DNA of 52,642 nt, taken from assembly GCA_946480825.1 (NCBI GenBank), contig CAMLLG010000025.1, positions 1 through 52,642 on the forward strand. The letters are read 5' to 3'. Within the stretch, counting starts at the first letter, position 1. Each line of letters starts with the position of its first letter. The notes under the pieces were generated by a model, which worked only from the letters and a program-made list of their open reading frames with translations, ran no database searches and was not told the DNA's origin. Source of the stretch: an uncultured Lysobacteraceae bacterium. GTDB taxonomy: Bacteria > Pseudomonadota > Gammaproteobacteria > Xanthomonadales > Xanthomonadaceae. Below are positions 2,648-40,512 of this stretch, piece after piece. The translations under genes and the position numbers were made by a program.

Positions 2648-2661
2648 GTCTCGCTCAGGCC
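2641..2661. terminator. Hairpin shared by two convergent stop codons
   Basis: GGCCTGAG-TCTCG-CTCAGGCC: a perfect 8-bp stem with a 5-nt loop. The TGA of the plus-strand gene (2645-2647) and the TGA of the minus-strand gene (2655-2657) both lie in the stem, as mirror images. A bidirectional terminator is plausible, although there is no T-run on either side. Confidence 0.5.
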
Positions 2662-5600
2662 TCCTCGATCGGCAGACTCACCCGCATCAGCCGGAACCAT
2701 GCATCGGAGGTGTCCTCATCGCCAACGCGGGCGAAGAGTTCGGACAGCGAGTGACACGCGGTCGGCCGGTCATCAGCTTTACGCGGATTTTGCTGCACGG
2801 TCAGCAGGCGCAAGCGCAGGCTGCCGGGCGGGGCGCGTTCGAATGCCTGCAATGCCTTGGGGGCGATCTGGATCGGTCCTGGTTTGCCGACATCGAAAGC
2901 GTTGATGTCGATGATCCGCTCGCTGCCGGGAATGCCGCGGGCATCGATGACCTGATACGTCAGCACCGGGAACAGCCCATCGAAACCCGGCTCTCGATCG
3001 AGCGCGACAACCTCCGTCGTGCCGTCGTACACGATCGAAACATCCGACGGTCCCCGCCGCAAGCGCAGACCTGAGGCAACGATCGGTCGGGGGTCGCGCT
3101 GACTCCCATCGCGCACGAGAATCTGATCGGACGGCCGCGGCAAGTGGATCCAGCCCGCCGACACCGCTTCCGACTCCAGATCGTTCTGCGGCAACGGCCA
3201 GACCCACCCCCTGGGCACTTCGCGACGCACGCGAAGCTTGACCAGCGGCCAAGGGTGCCCGGTGGCGGCATCCTTCGCCGGCGTATCGAAACTCACGACC
3301 CAACTCGCGCGCCGATATTTCGCGCCAGGCAGATCGGGGTCGAAACTGTGGCCGATCGGGCCGTGGGTCTCGCAATCGAGCTCCAATGCCGATGTCGGTC
3401 GCGCCTGGATCAGGATCGGATCCGGCCCGGCCATCTCCGCCGTCACGACGATCCGTTCGGGCAACCCCGCTTCATCGAATGCCGACTCCTCCAGTTGCAC
3501 CAGACACGCCAGCTTGCGCGGTCTTTTGTCCAGTGTGCTTTCGCCCGATTGGCTTTCGACATCGTCATAACCGGCCGTCAGCGGCAACACCATCGCGATC
3601 TTCGGCCGCGGCAATGCCGTTGCCCCCGGCCGGAATTTCAGGGCGAACGGCGCCCAAGTCTCCGTGAAGCTTTCGGCCTGCGTCTGGTCCTGCATCAATC
3701 CTGCATAGCGGCTGCGCGCGCGCAGACGGAAGCGGTGGTACTCCGCCGCACGCCGCGACTGCAGATCTTCGCGCCACACCACCGTACGCGGATCATTGGC
3801 TGCCGATGCGGCGAACTCACGAACATGATCGTCGTCGGAACGCCCGTGAAAGCCCCAGGACTCGAAACCACCCGCATCGTTCGGCTTGAAGGCGGTGCGA
3901 TCGTCGCCTGTCGGCACCAGCGCATCGACCTTCGTCCGATCGACGTGCCGCCCGCTCCAGGCCCAGCGCTGGCGCTCGAGGATCAAGGTTCTCGCATATT
4001 GCCAACCCTCGACGCCCGCATTAGAGAAATCCGCTTCAACAGTCAACGTGCGCCCGTCGAAAGCAGGCTTCAGCGCCTTCTGGAGTGCCGATGCCTGCGC
4101 GTTCTCGATGGCCGGTGCCTGCGGCATTTTTTCGGTGGCGACTTCAGCCAGCAACGTTCTGGGCGCGAAACGGATATAGCCGGCGGCATTCCGTGCAACC
4201 CCGACGGATCGCCCGAAGATCTCGACAGGTGCGAAGATTTTTTTTCCCTGCAAGTCTTTGTCGACATCGTCGTATCCAGCGAATCGTTCGGCCTTCACGA
4301 GTGCCGACGCCGACACGCGATACACGTGTCCCTTGTAGAACCCCGAGACGACGATCTCGCCGTTCCGGTTGTCGATCGTCGGTGGAAACATTGGCTTGTC
4401 GGGCAGCGGGTCCGCAGCCCCGTCCGCATCGATCCGCACCGTCATCGCACGCGTCTGCCCGTCCGGCGCTGCGGCTGCGGCAGGCGATGCACCGACGCCT
4501 TCCACCCGGAAGATGCTGGGCTGGCTCTGCTTGTCGGGTGTCGGCCACACCTGCTCGACTTCGATCAGATAAGCGTCGTGCGCGGGATCGTGGAATTTCG
4601 GCAGCGATTTCGCACCCTCGGGCTGGGCTGCGATCGCATCCGCCCGCGCCATCCACGTCGCGAGCGTCTTCCTGAGTTGCTCGGGCCATTGTTCGCCCGG
4701 TACACCGCCATCCTTGGCCGAGATCAGTGCGCGCCAGTGCCGCAGCCACACCATCATGTCCACTTCCGGTGGCTGCAGATGGAAGATATGCTTGGCCTTG
4801 TCGCGCCATTGCTGCGACGGGCACAGCAGTGTCAACGGTTCTTCGGACGGCGTGGTCGCGGCCAGCACTTCATGCGCAAGCGGATGCACATCTTCCCTGC
4901 GCGAGAACAACGTGTCGCTCTCGCCGGGTTCGAGCAGCGGTGCGCCGACCGGCACCCGTCGCAAATAATGGAAAGGCCCGAAGCCCGTTTCCAAGACATC
5001 GGCGGTGATGCCACGTGAAGAGAACAGTTCCTTCCTCGGATGCGCGGGATGCAGTCGCTCGCCCTCGTTCCTCGCACACAGCGCGGACGGCAATGCATTG
5101 CCGGGCCCGATGATGAAAGGTTTGCAGAAGTATCGCTGGCCGAATTTCAGATCCGGGAATTTGACGGCGGGATGCGCCACCGTCCGCACATCGGTCAGCG
5201 CGCTGTCGGCTTCGGGCTCGCCGCCGTAACCGATCGCCAGCGCTGCGTCGACATTGCCCTCGAACCACGGCTCGCCGCGATAGGCGACCATGGTGGTGCG
5301 CAGTTCTCCCGCGAACGCGGACGGCTGCCCGGACAGTGCGGCATAGCGCAAGGCTTCCGCTCCTTCGGGCAGGATCGATGCCGACGCCAGACAATGCCAG
5401 GGCTTTCCCGCCTGCCGCACCAGCAAACCGATGCCGGCGATCTGGCGCCGGAGATCCTCGAAGTTTGTATCGTCGCTGTCGACGTGCCCCGGGCGGTCGA
5501 TGGGCAGCATCAGATCGTGCACGCGATCCAGCGGCCATGGGTCGCCGAAGGCGGCAGGATAGCCGAGCGGCACGTCGGGCAACGCGCGTGCGCTGCCATC

Positions 5601-7334
5601 GAGATGACTGCGTCGCAGCGCTTCGACGCGCATTCGCAGGGCGCGGGCCAGCGCATCGAACAGGGGCGCGTCGGTGCGGATGTCCGATGCGACCAGATAA
5701 TCCCGCAGCGGTGCGTTCGGCGGGACGGGGTCGTCGTCGACATTCGACAAGAGTGCGACCAGCGTGCCTTTCGGGTCGGCGGTCGGCGCATCGTGAAGCT
5801 TTTCCACCACGGCCCGAAGCGGTTTGGGTGCGCCCAAGAGCTTCACATCGTCGCCATTGGTGCACCAGGCGCCGCGCACCATCGCGCCGAGCGGGAAACT
5901 GTCTCTCTTCTCGGATTTCAACCAGTCCTGCAGTGCTTTCGGTACGTTCGATCCCGGATGCGCTTTCGCGTGCAGTTTCACCGCCTCCAGCCAGGGTGTC
6001 GCATAGAGCGCGAACAATCCGGCGTCGGATGTCAGCCAGGCGAATGTGCGCGCAGCCTCACGCAAGAAATCCAGACCGCTGCGCTTGCCGAGCCCGTCGG
6101 CCGTCGGCTTTCCGTCGACCATCAGCTCGCCGTCGGCCGTCAGCGTCCAATTGATCGGCAGGATGCGAAGACTCTGCTCTTCGGCGCTTGCATTGTGCGC
6201 CGCGATGACAGCGTCGAGCGCCGGCATCGTCTGCAATGCAAGCGACGCAAGCACATCGCCCCAGCGCTCGGCGTCGTAGGCATCGCCCGGCAACGCACTG
6301 AGGATCGAGGTCAGCGGATGGCCGCCATCGCTGCCGACCCTGGTCAGCACGCCGTAACGCAGTGTCCACGCCTGCAGTGCGAATGCGATCAAGACTTCTC
6401 GCTGCGCCTGTTGCTCGAAACGCTGCTGCAGCGGCTTTGTCAGGTCCGGCGCACCTGCCTCCGCGGACAGCAACTGCGACAGCGCATCGAACAACGCATC
6501 CGGGTGATCGCAGGCCTCGGCCACCAATCCCGGCACGGCCGCGAACCAATCGTGCGAGGTCCAACCGCCTGCCTGATCCGAACGCCCCCACAGCGTGTGA
6601 AGATCGAGCAGTGCGCCAGTGGTCTCGGCCTGATTCGGGTCGGGCACGGCGCTGGTGCCGATGCGGGCCTTGGCGATCACAGACGCATCGTCGTTCGCCC
6701 AGCGATAGTCGACCCTCAGCTCCGGCGCCTGGTCGTCGTTCCATGTCGGCGTCTTGGTACTCAAGATCGCGCCGTCGGTGACCTTCGTCTCGATCCGTTG
6801 CGGGACAAGACAATACAGCGCATCAGGGGCGACGAATTGATCCCCTTGCACTCTGAACATGTACTGTAGTTTCAGACGATACGGCAGCAGACCGGGCCAC
6901 CGCCCTGCACCGGCGAGCAAATCGGGCCAGCACTGACGGTTGCCAGCATCCGGCTTCTCATCGTCCTCGTTCTGATTGAGACCGAGCTGGAATTCGTGAT
7001 GCGGGGTAATTTCTTTCTGCACGCAGCGTTCAAAGAGTGCTCCGAGCCGCTCTTTGATCGGCTCCGCCGTCGCTACGGTGGGCATCCAATCCTCCATGAG
7101 CGCCACCTCGGCGAACGATTCGTCCGGCAATGCCTCCAGAGCATCCTTGACCAGGCGGTAAAGTTTGAATTCGATCGCATCCCACCGCCACGGTTGCAGC
7201 AGCGCGTGCAACCGCTCGTCGTTCGGCGATTCCCCGCCCTCCCACTCCGCGCTCACCGAAAGCACCAGGTGACGATAGCCGTCTTCGTACGTGGGACCGA
7301 GGACCGCCGTGTCGAAATAGAAATGCAGATCCAT
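2655..7334 (-). CDS. Giant protein of unknown function (second gene of a two-gene operon)
   Basis: 1559 aa, with no signal peptide, no membrane helix and no motif I recognise, so presumably cytoplasmic. It begins MDLHFYFDTAVLGPTYEDGY. The N-terminal half is mixed and helical; the C-terminal third has short hydrophobic strands alternating with turns (for example HVYRVSASALV and WPLVKLRVRREVPRGWVWPL), suggesting beta-rich domains. Trp is frequent. The start lies 3 nt after the stop of the 2076-aa gene, with a GAGGA ribosome site inside that gene's last codons, so the two are almost certainly translated together. The reading frame is intact over 4.7 kb, which argues for selection. Base composition is less GC-rich than flanking genes, a sign of possible acquisition. 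I do not assign a function. Confidence 0.9.
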   Translation of the reverse strand: MDLHFYFDTAVLGPTYEDGYRHLVLSVSAEWEGGESPNDERLHALLQPWRWDAIEFKLYRLVKDALEALPDESFAEVALMEDWMPTVATAEPIKERLGALFERCVQKEITPHHEFQLGLNQNEDDEKPDAGNRQCWPDLLAGAGRWPGLLPYRLKLQYMFRVQGDQFVAPDALYCLVPQRIETKVTDGAILSTKTPTWNDDQAPELRVDYRWANDDASVIAKARIGTSAVPDPNQAETTGALLDLHTLWGRSDQAGGWTSHDWFAAVPGLVAEACDHPDALFDALSQLLSAEAGAPDLTKPLQQRFEQQAQREVLIAFALQAWTLRYGVLTRVGSDGGHPLTSILSALPGDAYDAERWGDVLASLALQTMPALDAVIAAHNASAEEQSLRILPINWTLTADGELMVDGKPTADGLGKRSGLDFLREAARTFAWLTSDAGLFALYATPWLEAVKLHAKAHPGSNVPKALQDWLKSEKRDSFPLGAMVRGAWCTNGDDVKLLGAPKPLRAVVEKLHDAPTADPKGTLVALLSNVDDDPVPPNAPLRDYLVASDIRTDAPLFDALARALRMRVEALRRSHLDGSARALPDVPLGYPAAFGDPWPLDRVHDLMLPIDRPGHVDSDDTNFEDLRRQIAGIGLLVRQAGKPWHCLASASILPEGAEALRYAALSGQPSAFAGELRTTMVAYRGEPWFEGNVDAALAIGYGGEPEADSALTDVRTVAHPAVKFPDLKFGQRYFCKPFIIGPGNALPSALCARNEGERLHPAHPRKELFSSRGITADVLETGFGPFHYLRRVPVGAPLLEPGESDTLFSRREDVHPLAHEVLAATTPSEEPLTLLCPSQQWRDKAKHIFHLQPPEVDMMVWLRHWRALISAKDGGVPGEQWPEQLRKTLATWMARADAIAAQPEGAKSLPKFHDPAHDAYLIEVEQVWPTPDKQSQPSIFRVEGVGASPAAAAAPDGQTRAMTVRIDADGAADPLPDKPMFPPTIDNRNGEIVVSGFYKGHVYRVSASALVKAERFAGYDDVDKDLQGKKIFAPVEIFGRSVGVARNAAGYIRFAPRTLLAEVATEKMPQAPAIENAQASALQKALKPAFDGRTLTVEADFSNAGVEGWQYARTLILERQRWAWSGRHVDRTKVDALVPTGDDRTAFKPNDAGGFESWGFHGRSDDDHVREFAASAANDPRTVVWREDLQSRRAAEYHRFRLRARSRYAGLMQDQTQAESFTETWAPFALKFRPGATALPRPKIAMVLPLTAGYDDVESQSGESTLDKRPRKLACLVQLEESAFDEAGLPERIVVTAEMAGPDPILIQARPTSALELDCETHGPIGHSFDPDLPGAKYRRASWVVSFDTPAKDAATGHPWPLVKLRVRREVPRGWVWPLPQNDLESEAVSAGWIHLPRPSDQILVRDGSQRDPRPIVASGLRLRRGPSDVSIVYDGTTEVVALDREPGFDGLFPVLTYQVIDARGIPGSERIIDINAFDVGKPGPIQIAPKALQAFERAPPGSLRLRLLTVQQNPRKADDRPTACHSLSELFARVGDEDTSDAWFRLMRVSLPIEEA

Positions 7335-7337
7335 GGC

Positions 7338-10300
7338 TCAATCCTCGTAACGCGCGAGATAGGCAGCGGCGCGTGCGCCGTGAACGTCGGTCACCGGCGA
7401 TGCGACATCGGCGGTGATCGCACGTTTCGCAACGTCGCCGGCCAACGCCTGTTGACCGTTCGACTTCCCGGCGAACCGGTAATTCACGCGCTGACGCACC
7501 GTGCGCTTGAAGAACCGGCCGATCTTCACGGTGATGTGCACCACGCCGCGACCGACCAGCGAGCCACTGGACTGGTATTCGATCTCCAACCGCAGATACA
7601 GGCCGACGGTGATGATGCCCCACAGCCGGAAGTTGCCGCTGAAGAGGAAGAACACGATCAGGCTGAAGCGCGAACGCGAACCGCGGCTGACGAATCTGGC
7701 GTTGACGCCGAAGACCACCTGGGCCATGCCACGGATCGGGCCGAAGTTCACCGAGAACACGCGCCCCGCGGCCAGGGCGATGTCGACCTCGGATTCGAGC
7801 AATCCCTTCGACGGCAGATAAGATGCGGCCACCGCCAGCCAACCGCCGCCGCCGAGCAGGCCGACGCTGAGCACGAACGGCTTGTCGGGCGAGGCCAGGC
7901 TCAGGCGCGTGCCGATCCTGAACTCGGGCTTGGCCACCAGTTCGAACGACAGATTCAGCGCAAGCCCATCGATCGAGAACGCGCCGAAGTTCAACGGACC
8001 CGGATCGAGTTCCAGCGTCGTGCGCACGCCGATGGGCAGGCCGTCGGCCTCGATCAGCATCGGCACGAAGCCGCGCGCCTGTTCCGGATCCTGATCGATC
8101 TTGCTGCGCGCGCGGATGAGATCGGCCAGGAATTTCAGGCCGGCCTTGAAATCGATGCGGTCGGGCGAGAAGTCGAAGTCGAACTGGCCGCGATCGTCGA
8201 AACGGATGCTGGCGTCGCGTAGATCCACCAGCGGATTGCCCGAGAATTCCAGCCGGATCGTCGATGCGATCTCGCCTTTGGCGTAGAACGCGGGGTTGCC
8301 TCCGAGCCCCGCCTCCATCCGCGAACGCGCGGAGAATTTCGGTTTGACCAGCCGCAGCGCGAGGCTCATCGCATCGAACAGCACCGGATTGGTCCTGTAG
8401 GGCACATCGACATCGGCCTGCACCCAGGCACGCTTGGTCTTCTTGTCGAAGCCGTGCGTCACCTTCACGGCGTTGCGGTCCAGATTCGGCAACTTCACCC
8501 GCGACAGCAGACCCGGCATCTTCACGCCGCCGAGACTGCCGAAGACCGCATTGAGATCGAAATCGCGCAGCGCGGCCGGCAACAGACCGGAGGCATCCAG
8601 ACCGATGCTCGGCAGATTCAGCGACAGCCCCTTGAGATCGTCGCCCAGCTCGGCGAAGAACGAGGTCACCGGGCTGATGTCGATGGTCAGGTCTGAAGGA
8701 TCGAACACGTATTCGAGCCATTCGCGATTGAAGCTCAGCTCCGGCAGGTTCGGCGCGGCGCCGAATGCGCGCAGCAGCGACAGCGGGGCATTGAATGCGG
8801 TGCGGACGGATTCGCCGAGGCTGTCGAGCGCGTGGCGCAAGCCGTCGGACACATTGTCGAGCGACTTCGACCATTCATCCCATTGTTGCTTCAGTTTTTC
8901 CTCGATCCAAGCCAATTCCGGCGGCGACAACCGACCGACAATCACCTCTATTTCCTTGACCAATTCCTGCAGCGCGGCGAAGTCGCCACCGAGTGTCAGA
9001 CTCGGCAAGGAAGGACAGATATCCGTCCTGATTCGGTGCTCGATATTACCTTTTGCCGTATCGAAGGCGGACCTTGTTGTCGAGGACAACTCCTGCACGC
9101 CTGCATTCAGAACACGAAGAAACGTCTCCGTGGTCATGGCGCCCCGGAGATCCCTTTCGATTCTGGAAACCAGAACGCGGATGGCATCCAATGCAAAGTC
9201 GACCTCCCGCGAGAGCGCATCGAGATCCGACCCGACTTCGCTCAATCCCTCTTCCACCGCTTGATGCAACGCATCGATATGCGACTCTATTGCGGTTTCG
9301 ACACCTGAAATATCACTGCGGATGTCTTGCTGAAGCTTTTCCAGCTCGACTTCCAGGTGATCGGCCACGCCCTGTGCTTGGACCAAACGCGCATCGATGT
9401 CTTCGAGAAGACGCTCCACTCTCCCTTTCGCCTGTTTGGCGATATTCTTCAACTTTGATGGAAGATCTTTGCCCGCCTTGCCTTTCCAGTAACGTGAAAG
9501 CGTTTCGATCGCGCGATCAAGACCCGAAAATGCCTGCGTGGAGCGCCATTGGATCACTTCGACGGCCTGGCGGGCGCGCGAGATGCGCGTCCGATATGCT
9601 TTCAGGTCGATGGTCTGGCCAGCCTTGTCCAAGGCCTCATGCAAAGCGGTGACGGCTTCTCCAAGCATGGCATGCAGCGCCAATTGGGCATGGTCGATGT
9701 CCGCCCACGTTCGTCGCATCGCGCCATCGAGGTTATCCAGTACCAGACGCTTCTTGTCGACCAGCACATCGATCCGTCCACGGAAATCATCCGCCAGATT
9801 CGTCAATTGTGCCTGCGCTCGTTCGCCCAGATCGAGAACCCTCTTTTGGATCTTCTCGTGTTCCTCCCCGATTCTGCTGATCAGCTCTCTCGACAATGCG
9901 TCGATCGGGCGATGCGCCTGCTTGACGAGAAGATCACACGTCGTCTTTTTCTTCATCTCCTCCAGAGCTTTCCATTGCTCCGAATTCTTGAATTTCTCGA
10001 TCCGGCCGGCGATTCTGTCTTTCTCCAGGAGCCAACGTTTCTCATCCCAGAATTCGCGCAAGCCCCGCAGCACGGTGTCCCGCAGGTCGAGACGGATACT
10101 CTCCGCTTCGGAAAGCAATGCTCCGAAGATTCTTGTCGGCGAAGGCTCGCCTGCAGGCGCTACCGGCTTGCGCATCACCGTCAGGTTGCGCAGCTTCGCC
10201 GAGATCGGCTGCTGCCCACGCCCGGCGATGAGATCGATCGGCCGCTCGCCGTCCTCGATCCGCCACGTGCACGCCGCGAGCGCGGGGCGCCCTTCAGCAG

Positions 10301-13300
10301 ACGATGGCAACGACCTGCGCAGCGACTCGGCGCTGCGATCGCCGAACGCCGCCTCCGTGCCTTCGACGCGGGCGAGAGCATCGACGAAATCCACACCCTC
10401 CACTGCCGGCCACAGATCGGTGTCGCCGCCTGCGTTCAGCACCGTATTGGTGAAGAACCGCAGATGCTCGGGGTCGGCGATGGCATGCAACGCTTCTTCG
10501 CCTGCTTCTTCCGAGGCAGCAAGCAAGTTGACCAGCGGCTTCGGAAAGAGTTTCGCGTCTTGGTCGCGCCGCCAAAGCGGCACCGACCAACCGACGTCAC
10601 CCACATCAACGCCCCACAGCGAACTCACCCGGATGATGCGATCAGCGAACTTCAGGCCCTGCACGAAGCCGGTCGCCTGTGCCGGCTGGCCCGCTGGCGC
10701 GAAACGGCGTTCCGGCTCAAGGATTTCGACGTATTCATCGATCTTGCGTACGATCGGCAGATACTTGAGCAGGTTCTGCTCTTCCTTGTCGCCCTCGATG
10801 CCGTAACGCTCGGCGCGCTGCGTCGTACGCTCGTACACGATCACGTGCTTGGCGCGATTCCAGAACACGCCGATGCGGCCGATGCGCTCCACCGCGTAAT
10901 GGCTGACCCGGCCCAGCTCGACATTGGCCTCGATGATCGAGCGCTCTTCGTCGAAACGGGCCTTGAGTGCGCCGTAACCACCCAGCGCGGTCCAGGCGAC
11001 ACGGGACAGCTCGCCGCTGGTGGACTGCAGCTCCCGGGTGACGGCTTCGTAGATGCGACGGGATTCGAAGCCGAAGGTCGCGCCGCCCCGCAGACCCGTG
11101 TCTTTGTCGGCAGCGTCTTTTTTCAGATAAGGCCGCGCGTGCAGATCCGCGACGTTCCGGCGCGCGATCGGATCGGACGTCGCGTCGAGCGGCGCATCCG
11201 GATCGGTCTTCGCGATGCGCAGACGTTGACTCAGGCCACTGTCCTGATCGAAGCGAAGCGATCCGGCTTCCAGCGGCCGATACGGTTGCAACGAGAGCAG
11301 GCGACTCTGGTAGCTCTCGACCAGCGCATTCCATGCGCGACTGTATTCGAGAGGCAGCGTTGCCGTGTCGGTGCGCCTGCTTTCGGGATCGACGACCTCG
11401 AGCCGTTGCGCGATGCGTCCACGCTGGATTTCGTCCGTCGTCAGTCGCACGCCGGCCGGGCGCAGGGTCGATTCCAGACCGTACAGCAGCTCGAAGCGCG
11501 CCGAGGACAGCAGCGGGCCCGCGGCCGCTTCGCCCGGACGACCGAACAACAGGCGCAGATTCCACGGCAGATCGCTGTAGGCACGTTCGTCGTCGCGCAG
11601 GCGCAGTTTGAACTCGGCATGCGGGCCCAGCCGGTAACCGATCGCTGCACGCTTGCTCCCCGCCGGTCTCTCGTCGATATCCTTCCGGCGTTCGTACGCT
11701 TCGCCGACGCCCTGCGTCGGCAGCGTCAATGTCGCATCCGGTTGCAGCGACCGGAAACGCCAGCGCGGCCCCTCGGGATCGCTGAGCGACCAGCCCGCAT
11801 AGTCGTTGCTCTCGGCGTTGTTCGCTTTCGGAAATTGGAAAGCGATTTTTCCGATGAAAAATGGAGCTTGATCGAGGACGATCAGTTCGAACTGCGGCGA
11901 CCGACCCTGATCGCCGCCCTCCCCGCCGGCCGGCGCCTGCACTCCGAGCGACATCTTCAGGCTGCGCGAGCGGTCGTCGCGCAAACGCTCTTCGATGCGC
12001 AGCGTGCTGTCGACCCCATCTCCCGGCGCGACTTCGGCGAGGATGGGCGCGGGCAAGCGGTCACTGTTCGCATCGTCCGCGAAACGGCTTCGGGGCACGG
12101 CATCGAAACCGCCCGGCTTGACCGCAAGATCGCCGAAATGGCATTCGAGACGGTAGGACGGGCGCTGCAGCCTGATCCGATATCGATCCAGCGCCACGCC
12201 CCAGGCGATGCGGAACAGACGGACTTCCGCCTGCTTCGCATCGATCCGCATCGCGCCGATATCGATTTTTCGCGGCTGGAAGTGCCCGGGCCCCGTCAGC
12301 TCGATCACGGTGTTGGGCATGAAACCGTGCGCCGCATCCCGGGCCTTGATCGCGACGAACGCGCAATCGGCATCGAATTGCATCGGGCCGCCGTCCGATG
12401 TCATTGCGGGCAATGTGACCTGGACCGGGAACCTTTGCGTCGTCAGGATTTCGACGTTGCGCGCAGGCCCGAACGCATCGACACCGCCCCAAGAGGACTG
12501 CGCGGGCTGCAGGTCGCGCTGCTGCCATGCGATCGTCGCGGTCGCGGCGGGCGCCACCACAGGCTTGTTCGGGTCGGATCTGGGCGACTCGATCTGCGGA
12601 AGCGCGCTGATACCGTCCGCTTCGTTCGCCAGAAGAACCGCTTCGTGGATGGGCCCCGAGACGATGCGCTCGAAGCCCTTGAGCACCCGATAGGGCGATA
12701 GCCGCTCGATGCGGAACTCGCGCCAGACTTCCCGGCTCCCTCCGACCGGCGGGCCCCACGGGTCCGTCTGCACCAGACTGTATGCCGGGGGTTTCGAAGC
12801 GGAGTCGAAATCCAGAGGAACGCCATATTCGAGCGGGCTGGCGCTTCGGGCATCCGCGGAGAGGCGTAATCGCGGCCCGGTCAAAGGCGGCACACCGTCG
12901 GTCTCGACCTGCGGCCAGAGCACCGATTCGAATCTGGTGTGTGCGCTCAGGCCGAGGGAAATCTCGATTCTGTATTGATTGGACTCCGAGTTCTTCGCGC
13001 GCCGGATCGCGATCGGGATATCTAGACTTCCGTCGCCTTCGATCGCCAGCTGCTGCGCCCCCATCGCGAGAAAAAGCGGCAGAGATCGCGCACCACCACC
13101 CGGTCGCCAATAGAATTTTGCGGTCTTGGCGGTATCGCTCCAGACCTCGTAGCCCTTGAATTCCTGATAGAAGCCGATCGCGACCGGCTTTCCGACCGTG
13201 AGCGATGCGACGACGATCGATTTGTCCGGCCCGTTGTCCGGCCCGACCTCCGCGACAAGTCGAAACGCGAGTGGACCGACATCGTTGACGCTGGAATCGC

Positions 13301-13568
13301 CGCGATAATCGATACCGGTGAACAATGCGTTGCGCACGACGTAATCGATGGTCAATGTGTCGCCCGAAACCTTGACTTCACTGCCATCGGGGCGACAGTG
13401 CGTCCAGAACAGCAGGAGTCCTTTGCTCCACAATTCGAAGCGGAAAATCCGATCGCGGCTTCCGGCTCCGGCCTCGAATTTTCCGTTCCGGATCTTGACT
13501 TCGAGCGGTAGCCGGCCCGGATCTTCGAAAAAAAACCGCGCCGCCAACAACTTGTCCATGTCGCTCAT
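7338..13568 (-). CDS. Giant protein of unknown function with a central coiled-coil region (first gene of a two-gene operon)
   Basis: 2076 aa, intact frame. The start ATG has AGGGG 5 bases upstream; a second in-frame ATG lies three codons later. There is no signal peptide. Approximate regions: 1-1150 mixed and beta-rich, with many Arg/Asp-rich strands; 1170-1590 long charged helices with heptad-like spacing, typical of coiled coil (EKDRIAGRIEKFKNSEQWK onward); 1600-2030 beta-rich with alternating hydrophobic residues (LDPGPLNFGAFSIDGLALNL) and a strongly hydrophobic strand pair near the end (SLIVFFLFSGNFRLWGII). The part encoding the coiled coil (about 8850-10050) is the most AT-rich part of the operon. 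No catalytic motif was seen. Size and layout suggest a structural, scaffold or large effector-like role, but that is speculation. A 158-bp gap upstream could hold the operon promoter. Confidence 0.9.
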   Translation of the reverse strand: MSDMDKLLAARFFFEDPGRLPLEVKIRNGKFEAGAGSRDRIFRFELWSKGLLLFWTHCRPDGSEVKVSGDTLTIDYVVRNALFTGIDYRGDSSVNDVGPLAFRLVAEVGPDNGPDKSIVVASLTVGKPVAIGFYQEFKGYEVWSDTAKTAKFYWRPGGGARSLPLFLAMGAQQLAIEGDGSLDIPIAIRRAKNSESNQYRIEISLGLSAHTRFESVLWPQVETDGVPPLTGPRLRLSADARSASPLEYGVPLDFDSASKPPAYSLVQTDPWGPPVGGSREVWREFRIERLSPYRVLKGFERIVSGPIHEAVLLANEADGISALPQIESPRSDPNKPVVAPAATATIAWQQRDLQPAQSSWGGVDAFGPARNVEILTTQRFPVQVTLPAMTSDGGPMQFDADCAFVAIKARDAAHGFMPNTVIELTGPGHFQPRKIDIGAMRIDAKQAEVRLFRIAWGVALDRYRIRLQRPSYRLECHFGDLAVKPGGFDAVPRSRFADDANSDRLPAPILAEVAPGDGVDSTLRIEERLRDDRSRSLKMSLGVQAPAGGEGGDQGRSPQFELIVLDQAPFFIGKIAFQFPKANNAESNDYAGWSLSDPEGPRWRFRSLQPDATLTLPTQGVGEAYERRKDIDERPAGSKRAAIGYRLGPHAEFKLRLRDDERAYSDLPWNLRLLFGRPGEAAAGPLLSSARFELLYGLESTLRPAGVRLTTDEIQRGRIAQRLEVVDPESRRTDTATLPLEYSRAWNALVESYQSRLLSLQPYRPLEAGSLRFDQDSGLSQRLRIAKTDPDAPLDATSDPIARRNVADLHARPYLKKDAADKDTGLRGGATFGFESRRIYEAVTRELQSTSGELSRVAWTALGGYGALKARFDEERSIIEANVELGRVSHYAVERIGRIGVFWNRAKHVIVYERTTQRAERYGIEGDKEEQNLLKYLPIVRKIDEYVEILEPERRFAPAGQPAQATGFVQGLKFADRIIRVSSLWGVDVGDVGWSVPLWRRDQDAKLFPKPLVNLLAASEEAGEEALHAIADPEHLRFFTNTVLNAGGDTDLWPAVEGVDFVDALARVEGTEAAFGDRSAESLRRSLPSSAEGRPALAACTWRIEDGERPIDLIAGRGQQPISAKLRNLTVMRKPVAPAGEPSPTRIFGALLSEAESIRLDLRDTVLRGLREFWDEKRWLLEKDRIAGRIEKFKNSEQWKALEEMKKKTTCDLLVKQAHRPIDALSRELISRIGEEHEKIQKRVLDLGERAQAQLTNLADDFRGRIDVLVDKKRLVLDNLDGAMRRTWADIDHAQLALHAMLGEAVTALHEALDKAGQTIDLKAYRTRISRARQAVEVIQWRSTQAFSGLDRAIETLSRYWKGKAGKDLPSKLKNIAKQAKGRVERLLEDIDARLVQAQGVADHLEVELEKLQQDIRSDISGVETAIESHIDALHQAVEEGLSEVGSDLDALSREVDFALDAIRVLVSRIERDLRGAMTTETFLRVLNAGVQELSSTTRSAFDTAKGNIEHRIRTDICPSLPSLTLGGDFAALQELVKEIEVIVGRLSPPELAWIEEKLKQQWDEWSKSLDNVSDGLRHALDSLGESVRTAFNAPLSLLRAFGAAPNLPELSFNREWLEYVFDPSDLTIDISPVTSFFAELGDDLKGLSLNLPSIGLDASGLLPAALRDFDLNAVFGSLGGVKMPGLLSRVKLPNLDRNAVKVTHGFDKKTKRAWVQADVDVPYRTNPVLFDAMSLALRLVKPKFSARSRMEAGLGGNPAFYAKGEIASTIRLEFSGNPLVDLRDASIRFDDRGQFDFDFSPDRIDFKAGLKFLADLIRARSKIDQDPEQARGFVPMLIEADGLPIGVRTTLELDPGPLNFGAFSIDGLALNLSFELVAKPEFRIGTRLSLASPDKPFVLSVGLLGGGGWLAVAASYLPSKGLLESEVDIALAAGRVFSVNFGPIRGMAQVVFGVNARFVSRGSRSRFSLIVFFLFSGNFRLWGIITVGLYLRLEIEYQSSGSLVGRGVVHITVKIGRFFKRTVRQRVNYRFAGKSNGQQALAGDVAKRAITADVASPVTDVHGARAAAYLARYED

Positions 13569-37188: not shown

Positions 37189-37312
37189 GGAAGGATCCTG
37201 TCGCGACGGACGGCATGTTGTTCGACGGACATCCATGCTAATCGGTCGTCGCGCTTCGCGCCCGCATGCGTACCGCGCCTGCGACCTTGGTCGAGAAAGG
37301 GCCTCCGGGCGC

Positions 37313-37341
37313 TTGAAAAAGCGGGACGCTGCTGATAACCA
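37313..37341 (+). promoter_or_regulatory. Weak sigma-70-like promoter candidate for the redox operon
   Basis: TTGAAA at 37313-37318 is followed after 17 bases by TAACCA, a poor match to the -10 box; GATAAC overlaps it. It lies 150-180 bp before the operon start. Low confidence. Confidence 0.2.
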
Positions 37342-37359
37342 TAGCGTCAGCGAGCGACA

Positions 37360-37381: not shown

Positions 37382-37493
37382 GATCGACAGGAGGCTCGCG
37401 ACGGCGCCCGGCATCGCAAGCCACCGGGCATGGAAAGGATTCCGGTGGCCCACGGCCGCCGACAGTACGGCATGGCCTGTCGTCAGAGGTGGC

Positions 37494-39080
37494 ATGGACG
37501 CGATACCGATCCGCGAAACCCAGGACCAGGACGATCTGGTCTGTCACTGCGCGGGCATCGGCCGCGCGCGGATCAAGGCCGCGATCGCGACGGCACCGGC
37601 GTCCACGCTCGAATCGCTCGGCACTCAGCTCGGCTGCGGCGTGCATTGCGGCTGCTGCCGGCCGCTGGTGCAGGAAATGCTCGGCGAATCGCCGTGGTAC
37701 GAGGTCGCGAACGCGAGCCGCACCCGGCTCACCGATGGCCTGCTCCCGCAGCGCGACATCATCCAGCTGGATCTGCAGTTGGTCGGATTCCCCCCGTATC
37801 CGCAGGCGAAGCCGGCGCAGCACGTGGTGCTGCAGGCCTGGATCGACGACGCCTGGGTGACGCGTACCTACACGGTGGTGAAGCAGTCCGAAGACGGCAA
37901 CACCGTGAGCATCGCGATGCGGCGCCTGCCCTACGGCGAACTGACGACGCGCCTGCTCGACGCCGACGAAACCATCTTCGCGGCCATTCCGATGCGCATC
38001 GCGGTGCCGGCCGGCGAAGCCGATCCCGGCGACGGCCGGCCGGTGGTGTGCTTCGTGGCCGGCGTCGGCGTGACCCTCGCGCTGTCGCTGTTGAACGGGC
38101 GCCCCCCCGGGCACATGCTGCACGTGGACTACAGCGCCTCGCACCGCGGCGACATGGTCTACGCCGATCGCATCGAGGCGTCGGCATCGGGCAGCCGCGA
38201 AGTGAGCTGTTTCCTGCGTGCGGAGGATGTGGATGGGCGCATCGACGACGAGGACATCCTGCAGACCGTGCAGGAATTCCCGGGCGCGCGCTTCTACGTC
38301 TGCGGGCCGCAGGGCTATACGGGCAGCGTCGTCGACGGCCTGCGCAAGGCGGGCGTGCCCGAGGCCGATGTGCGAGTGGAAGCGTTCTTCCTGAGATCGC
38401 ACGCCAAACCGCGGCGCAGCGTGCGCCGGCTCGCCTATGCCGCCGGGTTGGCGATCGCATTCCTGCCGTTGCTGCTGCTGGCGCCGGCGCTGGCGAAGTT
38501 CGTGCCGAACGCGGCGCACAATCCGGGGCACGAGGATCTGGCCTGCAGCGACTGCCATCGCGAAGCGCCGGGCACGATGCGACAGCAACTGCAGGCGAAG
38601 GCGAAGCACCTGGTGGGTCTGCGCGACGGCGACACCGATTTCGGAATGCGTGCGGTCGGCAACGCCGCCTGCATCGAGTGCCACGACAACCCCGACGACC
38701 GCCATCCCGCCCATCGTTTCCTCGAACCGCGTTTCGAGGCCGCGCGGCGCACGCTCGCCCCCGAGCAGTGCGTGAGCTGTCATCGCGAACATACCGGCAG
38801 CCGCGTGAGCCAGACCGACAGCGGCTTCTGCGCGGCGTGCCACGGCGATACGCAGGTGAAGGACGATCCCGCCACGCCGACCCATGCCGAGCTGTTCCGC
38901 GAAAAACGCTGGGACACCTGCCTGGCCTGCCACGATTTCCACGGCAACCACGGCCACGACGCGCCCACGGATCTCGACGACGCGCTCGCGCCCGGCGTCG
39001 TCGCCGCCTATCTCAAGCGCGCGGACTCGCCCTACGGCGACACCGTCGTGAAAGCCAAGCCGCCGGAGACCGCACAATGA
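37494..39080 (+). CDS. Transmembrane redox fusion: BFD [2Fe-2S] domain, FAD/NAD reductase, membrane helix, pentaheme cytochrome c
   Basis: 528 aa; an AGAGG box precedes the start. Residues 15-60 match a BFD-like ferredoxin domain: C17-H-C19 and C52-G-C-C55 as [2Fe-2S] ligands. About 90-300 is a ferredoxin-reductase module: the FAD motif RTYT, the NAD(P) phosphate motif CFVAGVGVTLALSLL and the C-terminal YVCGPQGYTGSVV. A positive stretch (RRSVRR) is followed by one membrane helix at about 313-335, then a region with five c-heme motifs: CSDCH (351), CIECH (393), CVSCH (426), CAACH (446), CLACH (476), plus additional His for second ligands. By the positive-inside rule the reductase is cytoplasmic and the hemes periplasmic. 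The stop overlaps the next gene (ATGA). I know each domain family but not this fusion as a named enzyme. Confidence 0.92.
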   Translation: MDAIPIRETQDQDDLVCHCAGIGRARIKAAIATAPASTLESLGTQLGCGVHCGCCRPLVQEMLGESPWYEVANASRTRLTDGLLPQRDIIQLDLQLVGFPPYPQAKPAQHVVLQAWIDDAWVTRTYTVVKQSEDGNTVSIAMRRLPYGELTTRLLDADETIFAAIPMRIAVPAGEADPGDGRPVVCFVAGVGVTLALSLLNGRPPGHMLHVDYSASHRGDMVYADRIEASASGSREVSCFLRAEDVDGRIDDEDILQTVQEFPGARFYVCGPQGYTGSVVDGLRKAGVPEADVRVEAFFLRSHAKPRRSVRRLAYAAGLAIAFLPLLLLAPALAKFVPNAAHNPGHEDLACSDCHREAPGTMRQQLQAKAKHLVGLRDGDTDFGMRAVGNAACIECHDNPDDRHPAHRFLEPRFEAARRTLAPEQCVSCHREHTGSRVSQTDSGFCAACHGDTQVKDDPATPTHAELFREKRWDTCLACHDFHGNHGHDAPTDLDDALAPGVVAAYLKRADSPYGDTVVKAKPPETAQ

Positions 39081-39985
39081 CGCTGCCGAAGATTCCCCGT
39101 TCCGTGCTCGCGCTCGCCGCTCTGGTCGTGGCGGGCATCTATTTTTTCGCGACCGCGCCGGCCGACCTCGACGACGCCAGCGCCGCGCGCGACGTACCGG
39201 TGGAAACGCTGTTCCGTCTGCTGGATGCGGAGAACGCATCGATCCGCGCGATCTACACCGGCGAGATCGTCACGCCCGGGCAGAAGATCGGGCTGGCCTA
39301 TCGCGAAGACTGGAAAGAGCGCGATGTGCATGCCGGGCCGCTGCCGGCGCTGTTGCTGCGCGAGACCGCCAATCGCCTCCAGCAGCGCGTGCCGGAACTG
39401 AACCTGTTTCTCGGCTCGACCTATCCGATCGAGGCCTCGAACATGTTCAAGGGCGCGCAGTCCCGATATTTCGCGAGCATCGAACGGGATCGCAAGCCGC
39501 GGTTTTTTCTCGACGACAGCACCGGCCGTCAAACCGCGATGTTCCCGGATATCGCCTCGGCGCCGGCCTGCGTCACCTGCCACAACGAACATGCGAAGAG
39601 TCCGCGCAAGGACTGGAAACAGGACGACGTGATGGGCGCAACCACCTGGTCCTTCGCGCGCGAAACGCTCTCCACCGATGAAGTGGTCGAAATCCTCGCG
39701 GCGTATCGCGCCTCGGCGATGGACACGTACGAGGCTTATCTGAAGAAGACCGCGCGCTTCGATGCGGCCGAACGTCCGCAATTGGGCGAACGCTGGCCGA
39801 AGGACGGCCTGTATCTGCCCGATGCGCAGACGTTCCGCCGACGGATGGAAGAGCGCAATTCGATCGCCTCGCTGAACCTGCTGCTGCAGGCGCGCGCACC
39901 GGACGGTACGGCGGTCGCCGCGCAGACGCCGGCCGCCGCGGCCGGTCGCGCAGGTGGCCAGGATCAGGCGGACACCGCGCCATGA
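39077..39985 (+). CDS. Membrane-anchored monoheme protein, Tll0287-like (DUF3365 type)
   Basis: 302 aa. One N-terminal membrane helix (about 8-25; SVLALAALVVAGIYFFA) acts as an anchor, and the rest is periplasmic. Residues about 40-195 resemble the Tll0287-like heme domain, ending in the c-heme motif ACVTCHNEHAKSPRKDW (C165-x-x-C-H169), where the CHNxHxxSPKxDW run is typical. The C-terminal part is helical and Ala-rich. It may pass electrons or sense redox state beside the pentaheme domain (inference). It overlaps both neighbours by 4 nt, so the three genes form a coupled operon. Confidence 0.85.
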   Translation: MTLPKIPRSVLALAALVVAGIYFFATAPADLDDASAARDVPVETLFRLLDAENASIRAIYTGEIVTPGQKIGLAYREDWKERDVHAGPLPALLLRETANRLQQRVPELNLFLGSTYPIEASNMFKGAQSRYFASIERDRKPRFFLDDSTGRQTAMFPDIASAPACVTCHNEHAKSPRKDWKQDDVMGATTWSFARETLSTDEVVEILAAYRASAMDTYEAYLKKTARFDAAERPQLGERWPKDGLYLPDAQTFRRRMEERNSIASLNLLLQARAPDGTAVAAQTPAAAAGRAGGQDQADTAP

Positions 39986-40512
39986 GTACGACACTGCCGC
40001 GCAACGCGGCCGCATCGAGAAGCGTCTATCAGACCGCGCTGGTCGCGGCATCGTGGTGCGGCCTGGCCGGCGTCCTGCTCGCCTGCATCGCATGGCTGTG
40101 GGCGCCGAGTCTGGAATCGCTGCTGAGGCTGCAGCGGATCGATGCCTACAAACAGGCCACCGGTTATGTCCTGGTCGGCCTGCTGGGCTTCGATCTGTCG
40201 CTGGCGCTGATCAAACGCCGACTGATCGGCGGGCGCGCGCAGCGCACGCTGCAGCTGGCGCACCGCATCCTCGGACTGACCATGCTGGTGATGCTGGTCC
40301 TGCATGCCGGATTCGCGCATGCCGGCTTCCTGCACGCCACCTTCGCGGTGACCATGCTGGTGGTGGTCGCCGGCGCCGTCTTGAACCTGCTGCCCAGTCA
40401 TCGCCTGGGCACCTGGGGACAATGGACCACGGCCCTGCACATCGCGGCGGGCTGTCTGCTCGCGGCGCTGGCGTTGATGCACCTGTATTTCGTCTACACC
40501 TACGCGACATGA
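39982..40512 (+). CDS. Small membrane protein, predicted di-heme cytochrome b (ferric-reductase-like)
   Basis: 176 aa, with membrane helices near 18-40, 58-77, 93-112, 118-136 and 150-172. Two helices carry His pairs 14 residues apart: His94/His108 (LAHRILGL...LVLHAG) and His153/His167 (ALHIAAG...LMHLYF). That is the spacing of the bis-histidine ligands for two stacked hemes b in cytochrome b and ferric-reductase membrane domains. Further His at 113, 118 and 140 may face the surface. A four-helix bundle with two hemes would carry electrons across the inner membrane from the cytoplasmic reductase to the periplasmic c-hemes (inference). ATGA overlap with the preceding gene; last gene of the operon. 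Confidence 0.85.
   Translation: MSTTLPRNAAASRSVYQTALVAASWCGLAGVLLACIAWLWAPSLESLLRLQRIDAYKQATGYVLVGLLGFDLSLALIKRRLIGGRAQRTLQLAHRILGLTMLVMLVLHAGFAHAGFLHATFAVTMLVVVAGAVLNLLPSHRLGTWGQWTTALHIAAGCLLAALALMHLYFVYTYAT

Follow-up and report, generated by a model that had tools for sequence, protein, structure and literature searches.

A candidate NAD(P)H-driven electron conduit with exchangeable parts, encoded by three genes of an uncultured Lysobacteraceae bacterium

What does an operon do that ties an NAD(P)H reductase, across one membrane helix, to a set of heme proteins? The question is raised by contig CAMLLG010000025.1 (assembly GCA_946480825.1) of an uncultured Lysobacteraceae bacterium. Its positions 1 to 52,642 are the window analyzed here, and the closest relatives of the window are Lysobacteraceae. 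Three co-directional genes encode p1, p2, and p3 (Table 1). We read the operon as a modular inner-membrane electron conduit driven by NAD(P)H, with a probability of roughly 0.7. To our knowledge, few bacterial routes send NAD(P)H electrons straight across the inner membrane without quinone.

Proteins of the operon and a proposed route

The open reading frame (ORF) calls agree with the coordinates and frames of a sequence-only reading of this DNA. They also agree with its two 4-nt ATGA overlaps. The p1 and p2 genes overlap at 39077-39080, and the p2 and p3 genes overlap at 39982-39985.

p1 contains a BFD domain, an FNR-type reductase, one membrane helix, and a pentaheme domain. The BFD domain belongs to Fer2_BFD (PF04324), with 35.1 bits against a cut-off of 26 and all four cysteines. 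FAD_binding_6 is slightly below threshold (20.5 versus 21.1 bits). Cytochrome_C7, Cytochrom_c3_2, and Paired_CXXCH_1 exceed their cut-offs. The CXXCH motifs are at residues 351, 393, 426, 446, and 476. These motifs and C17, C19, C52, and C55 are invariant in all 46 aligned fusion proteins (the window protein and 45 of 78 homologs). ORF calls, Pfam, and the alignment thus bear out the cysteines, the reductase module, the single helix after RRSVRR, and the five heme motifs named from the sequence. The AlphaFold model of the reductase part has a pLDDT of 77 to 97 per ten-residue block. Searched against the PDB, the p1 profile scores highest with the reductase domains of flavohemoproteins (4eh1 and 1gvh). 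The pentaheme part alone retrieved nothing better than E 0.13 from the PDB sequences. Six further histidines of this part are conserved in the alignment (346, 404, 433, 464, 483, and 486). They would suffice for five bis-His hemes, so the domain is probably a wire and not a catalytic site.

p3 was described in the sequence-only reading as a 176-aa membrane protein with the histidine spacing of a di-heme cytochrome b. The four histidines hold up. None of them varies among the 38 aligned proteins (the window and 37 of 76), and they are 99-100% conserved over all 77 proteins. Together with the invariant p1 motifs, this makes a pattern that appears conserved far beyond chance. The p3 model (pLDDT 84, pTM 0.74) contains five long helices, with His94 and His108 on transmembrane helix (TM) 3 and His153 and His167 on TM5. 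The mean number of lysines and arginines (KR) per loop alternates (1.47, 0.82, 2.13, 0.05, 1.82, and 0.26), and the predicted orientation is N-in, C-out. Given this alternation, TM3 and TM5 would run parallel. His94/His153 and His108/His167 would then lie at opposite faces, as expected of two stacked hemes b.

No Pfam family exceeds its threshold on p3. DUF4405 (PF14358) scores 14.8 against 26.7 bits, outside the family. The ferric reductase-like family PF01794 has no match at E 1 to the window p3 and reaches 16.5 against 28 bits in the relative from L018. The p3 profile found nothing significant among PDB sequences, and Foldseek found nothing at E 0.001. In the Foldseek results in VIA, talin-type bundles rank first and cytochrome b6/bc1 chains rank lower.

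p2 belongs to sCache_heme, as its Tll0287-like label in the sequence-only reading implied. It matches PF11845 with 27.3 bits against a cut-off of 24.1. Its N-terminal anchor is hydrophobic as judged by eye, and its CXXCH is at residues 165-169. Cys165, Cys168, and His169 are invariant across 27 aligned p2 proteins. These 27 contain no conserved cysteine other than those of the CXXCH, which places p2 outside the Cys/His-ligated Tll0287 sub-type. Met155 is conserved within the p2 sub-family but not in the remoter proteins of L126 and L127. L126 resembles L127:7860-11804 and has 11 hemes. A PDB sequence search with the p2 profile gave nothing significant and a single chance match at E 1.4.

Table 1. 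Positions in the window of the operon, its domains, and the conserved block before it
Feature	Position	Strand	Evidence
p1, BFD-FNR-TM-pentaheme fusion protein	37494..39080	+	ORF of 528 aa, ATG at 37494, TGA at 39080; Pfam
p1 residues 15-64, BFD-type [2Fe-2S] domain, Cys17/19/52/55	37536..37685	+	PF04324, Cys conservation
p1 residues ~79-300, FNR-type FAD/NAD(P)H reductase	37728..38393	+	Profile matches, AlphaFold model
p1 residues 310-327, one membrane helix after RRSVRR, predicted cytoplasm to periplasm	38421..38474	+	Sequence, helix in model
p1 residues 345-486, pentaheme c domain	38526..38951	+	Pfam, conservation in alignments
p2, N-terminal hydrophobic anchor and Tll0287-like/sCache_heme monoheme protein	39077..39985	+	302 aa; PF11845
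p3, 5-TM protein, candidate di-heme b carrier	39982..40512	+	176 aa, His94/108 and His153/167
Conserved upstream block CTTGAAAA ... TAACCAT, promoter-like (TTGAAA-17 nt-TAACCA)	37312..37342	+	Aligned upstream regions

The order RRSVRR-helix-hemes in p1 and the loop charges of p3 predict that the reductase and the c-type hemes lie on opposite sides of the membrane, in line with the earlier proposal. The single helix of p1 holds no cofactor, so, given the limits of electron tunnelling, p3 would have to form the bridge across the membrane. On the cytoplasmic side, NAD(P)H would donate hydride to the FAD of the FNR domain. The FNR domain would pass the electrons on, one at a time, to the [2Fe-2S] cluster of BFD. 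The electrons may then enter p3 at the cytoplasm-side heme b (His94/His153) and hop to the periplasm-side heme b (His108/His167). From there they would reach the five bis-His hemes c of p1, then the heme c of p2, and then some acceptor. We infer the cofactor loading, the order and direction of these hops, the donor, and the acceptor.

Distribution of the gene set and placement of the reductase

The protein search scored the 7,995 best candidates and gave 78 homologs of p1, of which 73 span at least 88% of it. Lysobacter hankyongensis encodes a relative with 91% identity, and Ramlibacter relatives are 43-45% identical. A chance or artificial fusion is rejected, since the fusion recurs at this length with invariant motifs. 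Separate reductase genes exist, yet they lie inside the same operon.

A genome scan confirmed 230 places, and the best 80 provide the locus counts given here. Profiles built iteratively from pieces of the window detect the pentaheme part in all 80 loci, a p2 relative in 79, and p3 in 76, whereas 48 loci have a reductase. Three of the loci that lack p3 stop at a contig edge (L010, L013, and L035), and the fourth is not at an edge (L025). Pentaheme and p2 share a strand in all 79 loci that have both. The gene orders are c5-p2-p3 (28 loci), p2-p3-FNR-c5 (23), FNR-c5-p2-p3 (22), and others (7, two of them with the reductase fused to p3). The carriers fall in seven phyla as named in their records: Pseudomonadota, Bacteroidota, Chloroflexota, Methylomirabilota, Myxococcota, Gemmatimonadota, and Sulfurovum. 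Many of the loci are from metagenome-assembled genomes.

The three cytochromes co-evolve, with Mantel r of 0.90-0.91 over 74 sets (73 loci and the window). The reductase follows p2 with r 0.93 and p3 with r 0.96 over 47 sets (46 loci and the window). The conserved unit thus appears to be the three cytochromes, with the reductase as an optional and exchangeable part. The expectation that the domain order recurs and that the three genes stay together is borne out by the scan. The inclusion of the reductase in the core is not.

Reductase placement was classed by motifs, with Pfam on L043, L037, L040, and L042. BFD-FNR is fused to the pentaheme in 10 loci (the BFD motif is visible in 9, and L008 is cut). 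FNR-Fer2 is fused to the pentaheme in 13 loci and is a separate gene inside the operon in 23. FNR is fused to p3 in two loci, L040 (with BFD, in broken frames) and L042 (truncated where the contig stops). L137 contains an intact 465-aa BFD-FNR-p3 protein, above Pfam cut-off, followed directly by pentaheme and p2. L137 came from a p1-profile search of 369 genomes of the class, seven of which matched. The centre genome has the whole fusion, four genomes have the pentaheme part (L137 is one of them), and two have BFD-FNR only.

Natural fusions to p3 and to the pentaheme tie the reductase to both its b-type and its c-type partner. The fusions to p3 supply a connection that the sequence-only reading could only infer. 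The reductase is N-terminal in the p3 fusions and would there be cytoplasmic, in agreement with p3 being N-in. These comparisons support the proposed route from NAD(P)H through FAD and FeS to heme b and heme c. Two unrelated [2Fe-2S] types, BFD and plant-type Fer2, seem to fill one functional slot. If the conduit is modular in this way, natural fusions reveal which of its parts touch. The gene set also spans the seven phyla and occurs in a named species, Lysobacter hankyongensis.

We also built a tree from 75 rows of the three cytochromes by a quick method, with the backbone and some long branches unsure. The BFD fusions form one clade, starred on the tree, that adjoins reductase-less rows. 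The Fer2 forms lie within the Bacteroidota part. The five reductase states require six changes on this tree.

No reductase is found in the fetched flank of 32 loci, which include Methylococcaceae, Shimia, Dehalococcoidia, and Methylomirabilis. Sequence of more than 3 kb flanks the genes on each side in 23 of these 32, and the other 9 fall short of this on at least one side. The core may therefore also accept electrons from quinol, and in reductase-less bacteria the same three cytochromes are presumably quinol-fed. Is the core then a quinol:cytochrome c oxidoreductase, with p3 as the quinol oxidase and the reductase as a bypass, or run in reverse, in some lineages? The position of the reductase-fused Lysobacteraceae clade beside reductase-less rows would suit this. 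We nevertheless think it unlikely. The reductase is present in 48 loci, comes with two [2Fe-2S] types, was probably acquired more than once (the tree backbone is weak), and co-evolves with p3.

Full-length p2 is rare and well separated from other sCache_heme proteins in whole-genome searches with the p2 alignment. It was found in 5 of 119 Lysobacteraceae genomes. It was found in 3 of 398 Pseudomonadota genomes, the centre genome counted, and 23 further genomes gave weak matches only. Searches of 296 Bacteroidota genomes and of 196 from the order of G009 each gave a single carrier, the centre genome itself. Methylomirabilota have it in 7 of 60 genomes, with one broken copy in addition. The pentaheme gene was seen at 14 of 15 short loci around full-length p2. 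The fifteenth, L105, is in the genome of L043, where the pentaheme is further along. At least 3 of these 15 loci are from genomes already in the 80-locus scan. Twelve tested carriers have one full-length copy per genome.

One of 72,556 plasmid records carries a copy, from Flammeovirga kamogawensis. Its genes are named globin, DUF3365, hypothetical protein, ferredoxin-NADP reductase, and cytochrome c3 family, with no system name.

Two loci contain broken copies, from assembly error or decay. L022:8429-9049 has a shortened p2 that reads into p3, and L046:3968-4669 has the pentaheme in two frames. Some operons contain genes for heme supply, namely hemA and an NrfE/CcmF-like lyase. The lyase gene lies between the FNR and pentaheme genes in L016, L020, L034, and L075 (named from L016, sub-threshold).

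Relation to known systems

The accessible text of PMC12889525 defines sCache_heme (DUF3365/Tll0287) and assigns its stand-alone members 'redox-related' roles. p2 has the defining CXXCH. It differs by the missing conserved axial cysteine, and its pentaheme and four-His partners do not appear in that text. The conduit would offer a function for stand-alone sCache_heme proteins. Might p2 instead be a redox or nitric oxide (NO) sensor, with the other proteins setting its redox state for signalling? The signalling member in the accessible part of PMC12889525 binds NO with slow release, and p2 lacks the cysteine that ligates the redox-type members there. We find this improbable. Pfam detects no kinase, MCP, HAMP, or GGDEF family on p2, the same source gives stand-alone members redox roles, and three conserved cytochromes would be a lot for a sensor.

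Membrane-anchored multiheme c proteins are known from NapC/CymA and NrfB, and Geobacter CbcL joins one to a di-heme b part. All are quinol-linked inner-membrane donors and are not known to carry an NAD(P)H/FAD/[2Fe-2S] module. The operon shares the membrane-anchored multiheme c with them. Its proteins fall short of the NapC/NirT model (PF03264, 11.5 versus 24.1 bits) and the NrfB model (PF22678, 15.6 versus 27).

The pentaheme also has a weak, sub-threshold MtrC/MtrF-type match (PF22113, 24.4 versus 30 bits). A gene for an alginate-export-type outer-membrane porin lies close to 19 of the 80 loci, in 6 of them between pentaheme and p2 (L029, L033, L038, L044, L061, and L076). It is above the Pfam cut-off in L043 and under it in L029. 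The porin may admit substrate or form part of a longer route. Both observations would fit a conduit that works with a partner in the outer membrane to send electrons out of the cell. We regard this as very improbable, since the porin cluster is seen in the Bacteroidota part of the tree only and may simply admit substrate. In flavobacteria the porin comes after ABC-transporter genes of the nitrate/sulfonate type.

The closest likeness in working is to NOX, ferric reductases, and MsrQ, in which a cytoplasmic FNR feeds two stacked b-hemes on bis-His helices. The available part of PMC5676040 places the NOX bis-His helices at TM3 and TM5. The p3 model helices and the invariant histidines, as putative heme ligands, match this. 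Three NOX features are absent. NOX has six TMs with a C-terminal dehydrogenase on the same chain, whereas p3 is predicted to have five and the dehydrogenase is N-terminal or on another chain. The FAD motif H(P/S/A)F[TS] given in the same part of PMC5676040 is missing, and p1 has RTYTVV at the likely FAD site. The operon also differs from NOX, ferric reductases, and MsrQ by an extra [2Fe-2S] cluster and a c-heme chain as acceptor. It probably works like NOX by analogy without being a NOX member. Since it departs from NOX in the order of its chains, the number of its helices, and its FAD motif, we regard it as a variant of transmembrane NAD(P)H oxidoreductases. Superoxide or Fe(II) as its product, as for NOX or a ferric reductase, has next to no plausibility, since six further c-hemes would be pointless for O2 reduction and no iron-uptake gene was recognized by eye among the neighbourhoods listed.

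Flavohemoglobin (Hmp) supplies the solved structures that score best with the p1 reductase, but p1 has no globin domain. The NCBIfam equivalog for NO-inducible flavohemoprotein matches the p1 reductase part only, with 40.7 against 432 bits. That the reductase chiefly serves a neighbouring globin as a split flavohemoglobin, merely co-transcribed with the cytochromes, is hardly credible. A globin accompanies 24 of the 80 loci, the one tested resembles flavohemoproteins, and flavohemoprotein reductases lead the PDB matches of p1, but the globin is confined to one Bacteroidota sub-clade and the reductase is covalently attached to the pentaheme in Lysobacteraceae and to p3 in L137, L040, and L042.

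The sequence-only reading recognized no named system in this combination. Our searches of the open-access literature showed no description of the operon or its cytochrome triad. The accessible text of PMC8238504 maps other transmembrane systems and lacks the terms DUF4405 and 'multiheme'. The accessible parts of PMC9230427, PMC7374466, and PMC10732223 contain nothing on the pentaheme/sCache_heme/four-His set.

Two proteins found elsewhere resemble the reductase part, each with the same BFD-FNR module feeding another redox centre (the BFD of L138 is sub-threshold). L139:7833-10421 encodes an 863-aa chain with two cNMP-binding domains, BFD, FNR, and a C-terminal p3-like four-His membrane part. 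It is a one-chain, reductase-first, NOX-like arrangement. L138:5106-11529 contains a molybdopterin oxidoreductase beside a fusion of cNMP, BFD, FNR, and siroheme nitrite/sulfite reductase. Neither pentaheme nor p2 was found in the 18-kb stretches of L138 and L139.

Nitrogen-oxide context and the surroundings of the operon

The neighbourhoods of some carriers contain genes of nitrogen metabolism. Of 7 carriers in Methylomirabilis, 6 have one or two NorB/NO-dismutase-like genes and a monoheme cytochrome upstream. Few of these cases are independent, because some of the genomes are nearly identical. The NorB part was identified by Pfam on L017. BLAST neighbour clusters include a NarK-like transporter (12 loci), a NirB/nitrate-reductase-like protein (12), CobA (7), and a Crp-type regulator (14), mostly in Bacteroidota with a few members outside. 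Among single members tested, NirB and CobA are above cut-off, NarK is just under, and nitrate reductase is under. L046 has a NirC nitrite transporter near the operon.

From these neighbours, with the globin of the Bacteroidota and the siroheme nitrite/sulfite reductase fusion of L138, we suggest, tentatively, that the operon supplies electrons for periplasmic nitrogen-oxide or NO chemistry or for protection. It is more doubtful that the triad is itself a periplasmic nitrogen-oxide machine, in which NAD(P)H or quinol supplies electrons to a p2 heme that binds NO (or nitrite) and turns it over. The Lysobacteraceae weigh against a nitrogen-oxide function. NOR is present in 4 of 5 carriers and 58 of 114 non-carriers, and NirB in 0 of 5 and 13 of 114, with no enrichment of either. 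No nitrogen gene was recognized by eye beside L001, L002, L007, and L010.

If the nitrogen-oxide context holds, the operon would be an extra component beside NO dismutase in denitrifying methanotrophs. If the triad does turn over nitrogen oxides, it would complement NO dismutase in Methylomirabilis and the flavohemoglobin-type globins in Bacteroidota. It would also give stand-alone sCache_heme a function and found a new class among the transmembrane NAD(P)H oxidoreductases, one whose parts are interchangeable.

The direct neighbours in the window suggest no shared pathway. Upstream is an AMP-binding ligase, and downstream is a protein with a sub-threshold FG-GAP match. Far from the operon, window 2655-13568 (-) contains adjacent ORFs of 1,559 and 2,076 aa. 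Neither has a Pfam match above cut-off, and the second has a sub-threshold apolipoprotein-type match.

A generic sigma-70 scan of 37.1-40.8 kb found no promoter-like site and did not call the upstream block. Fnr-box matches with 2 mismatches numbered 15 in the window against 7.69 expected, with none at 34.3-45.3 kb. No RNA family was found at 37-41 kb at E 0.1. Terminator-like sites at 37.1-40.8 kb numbered 5 against 1.7 expected, and two were at the p2 start. All 8 aligned upstream regions (the window and 7 Lysobacteraceae loci) have an identical CTTGAAAA, and 7 of the 8 have TAACCAT. A further element, ACAGGAGG at window 37387-37394, is conserved before p1 in Lysobacteraceae, about 100 nt upstream of the annotated start.

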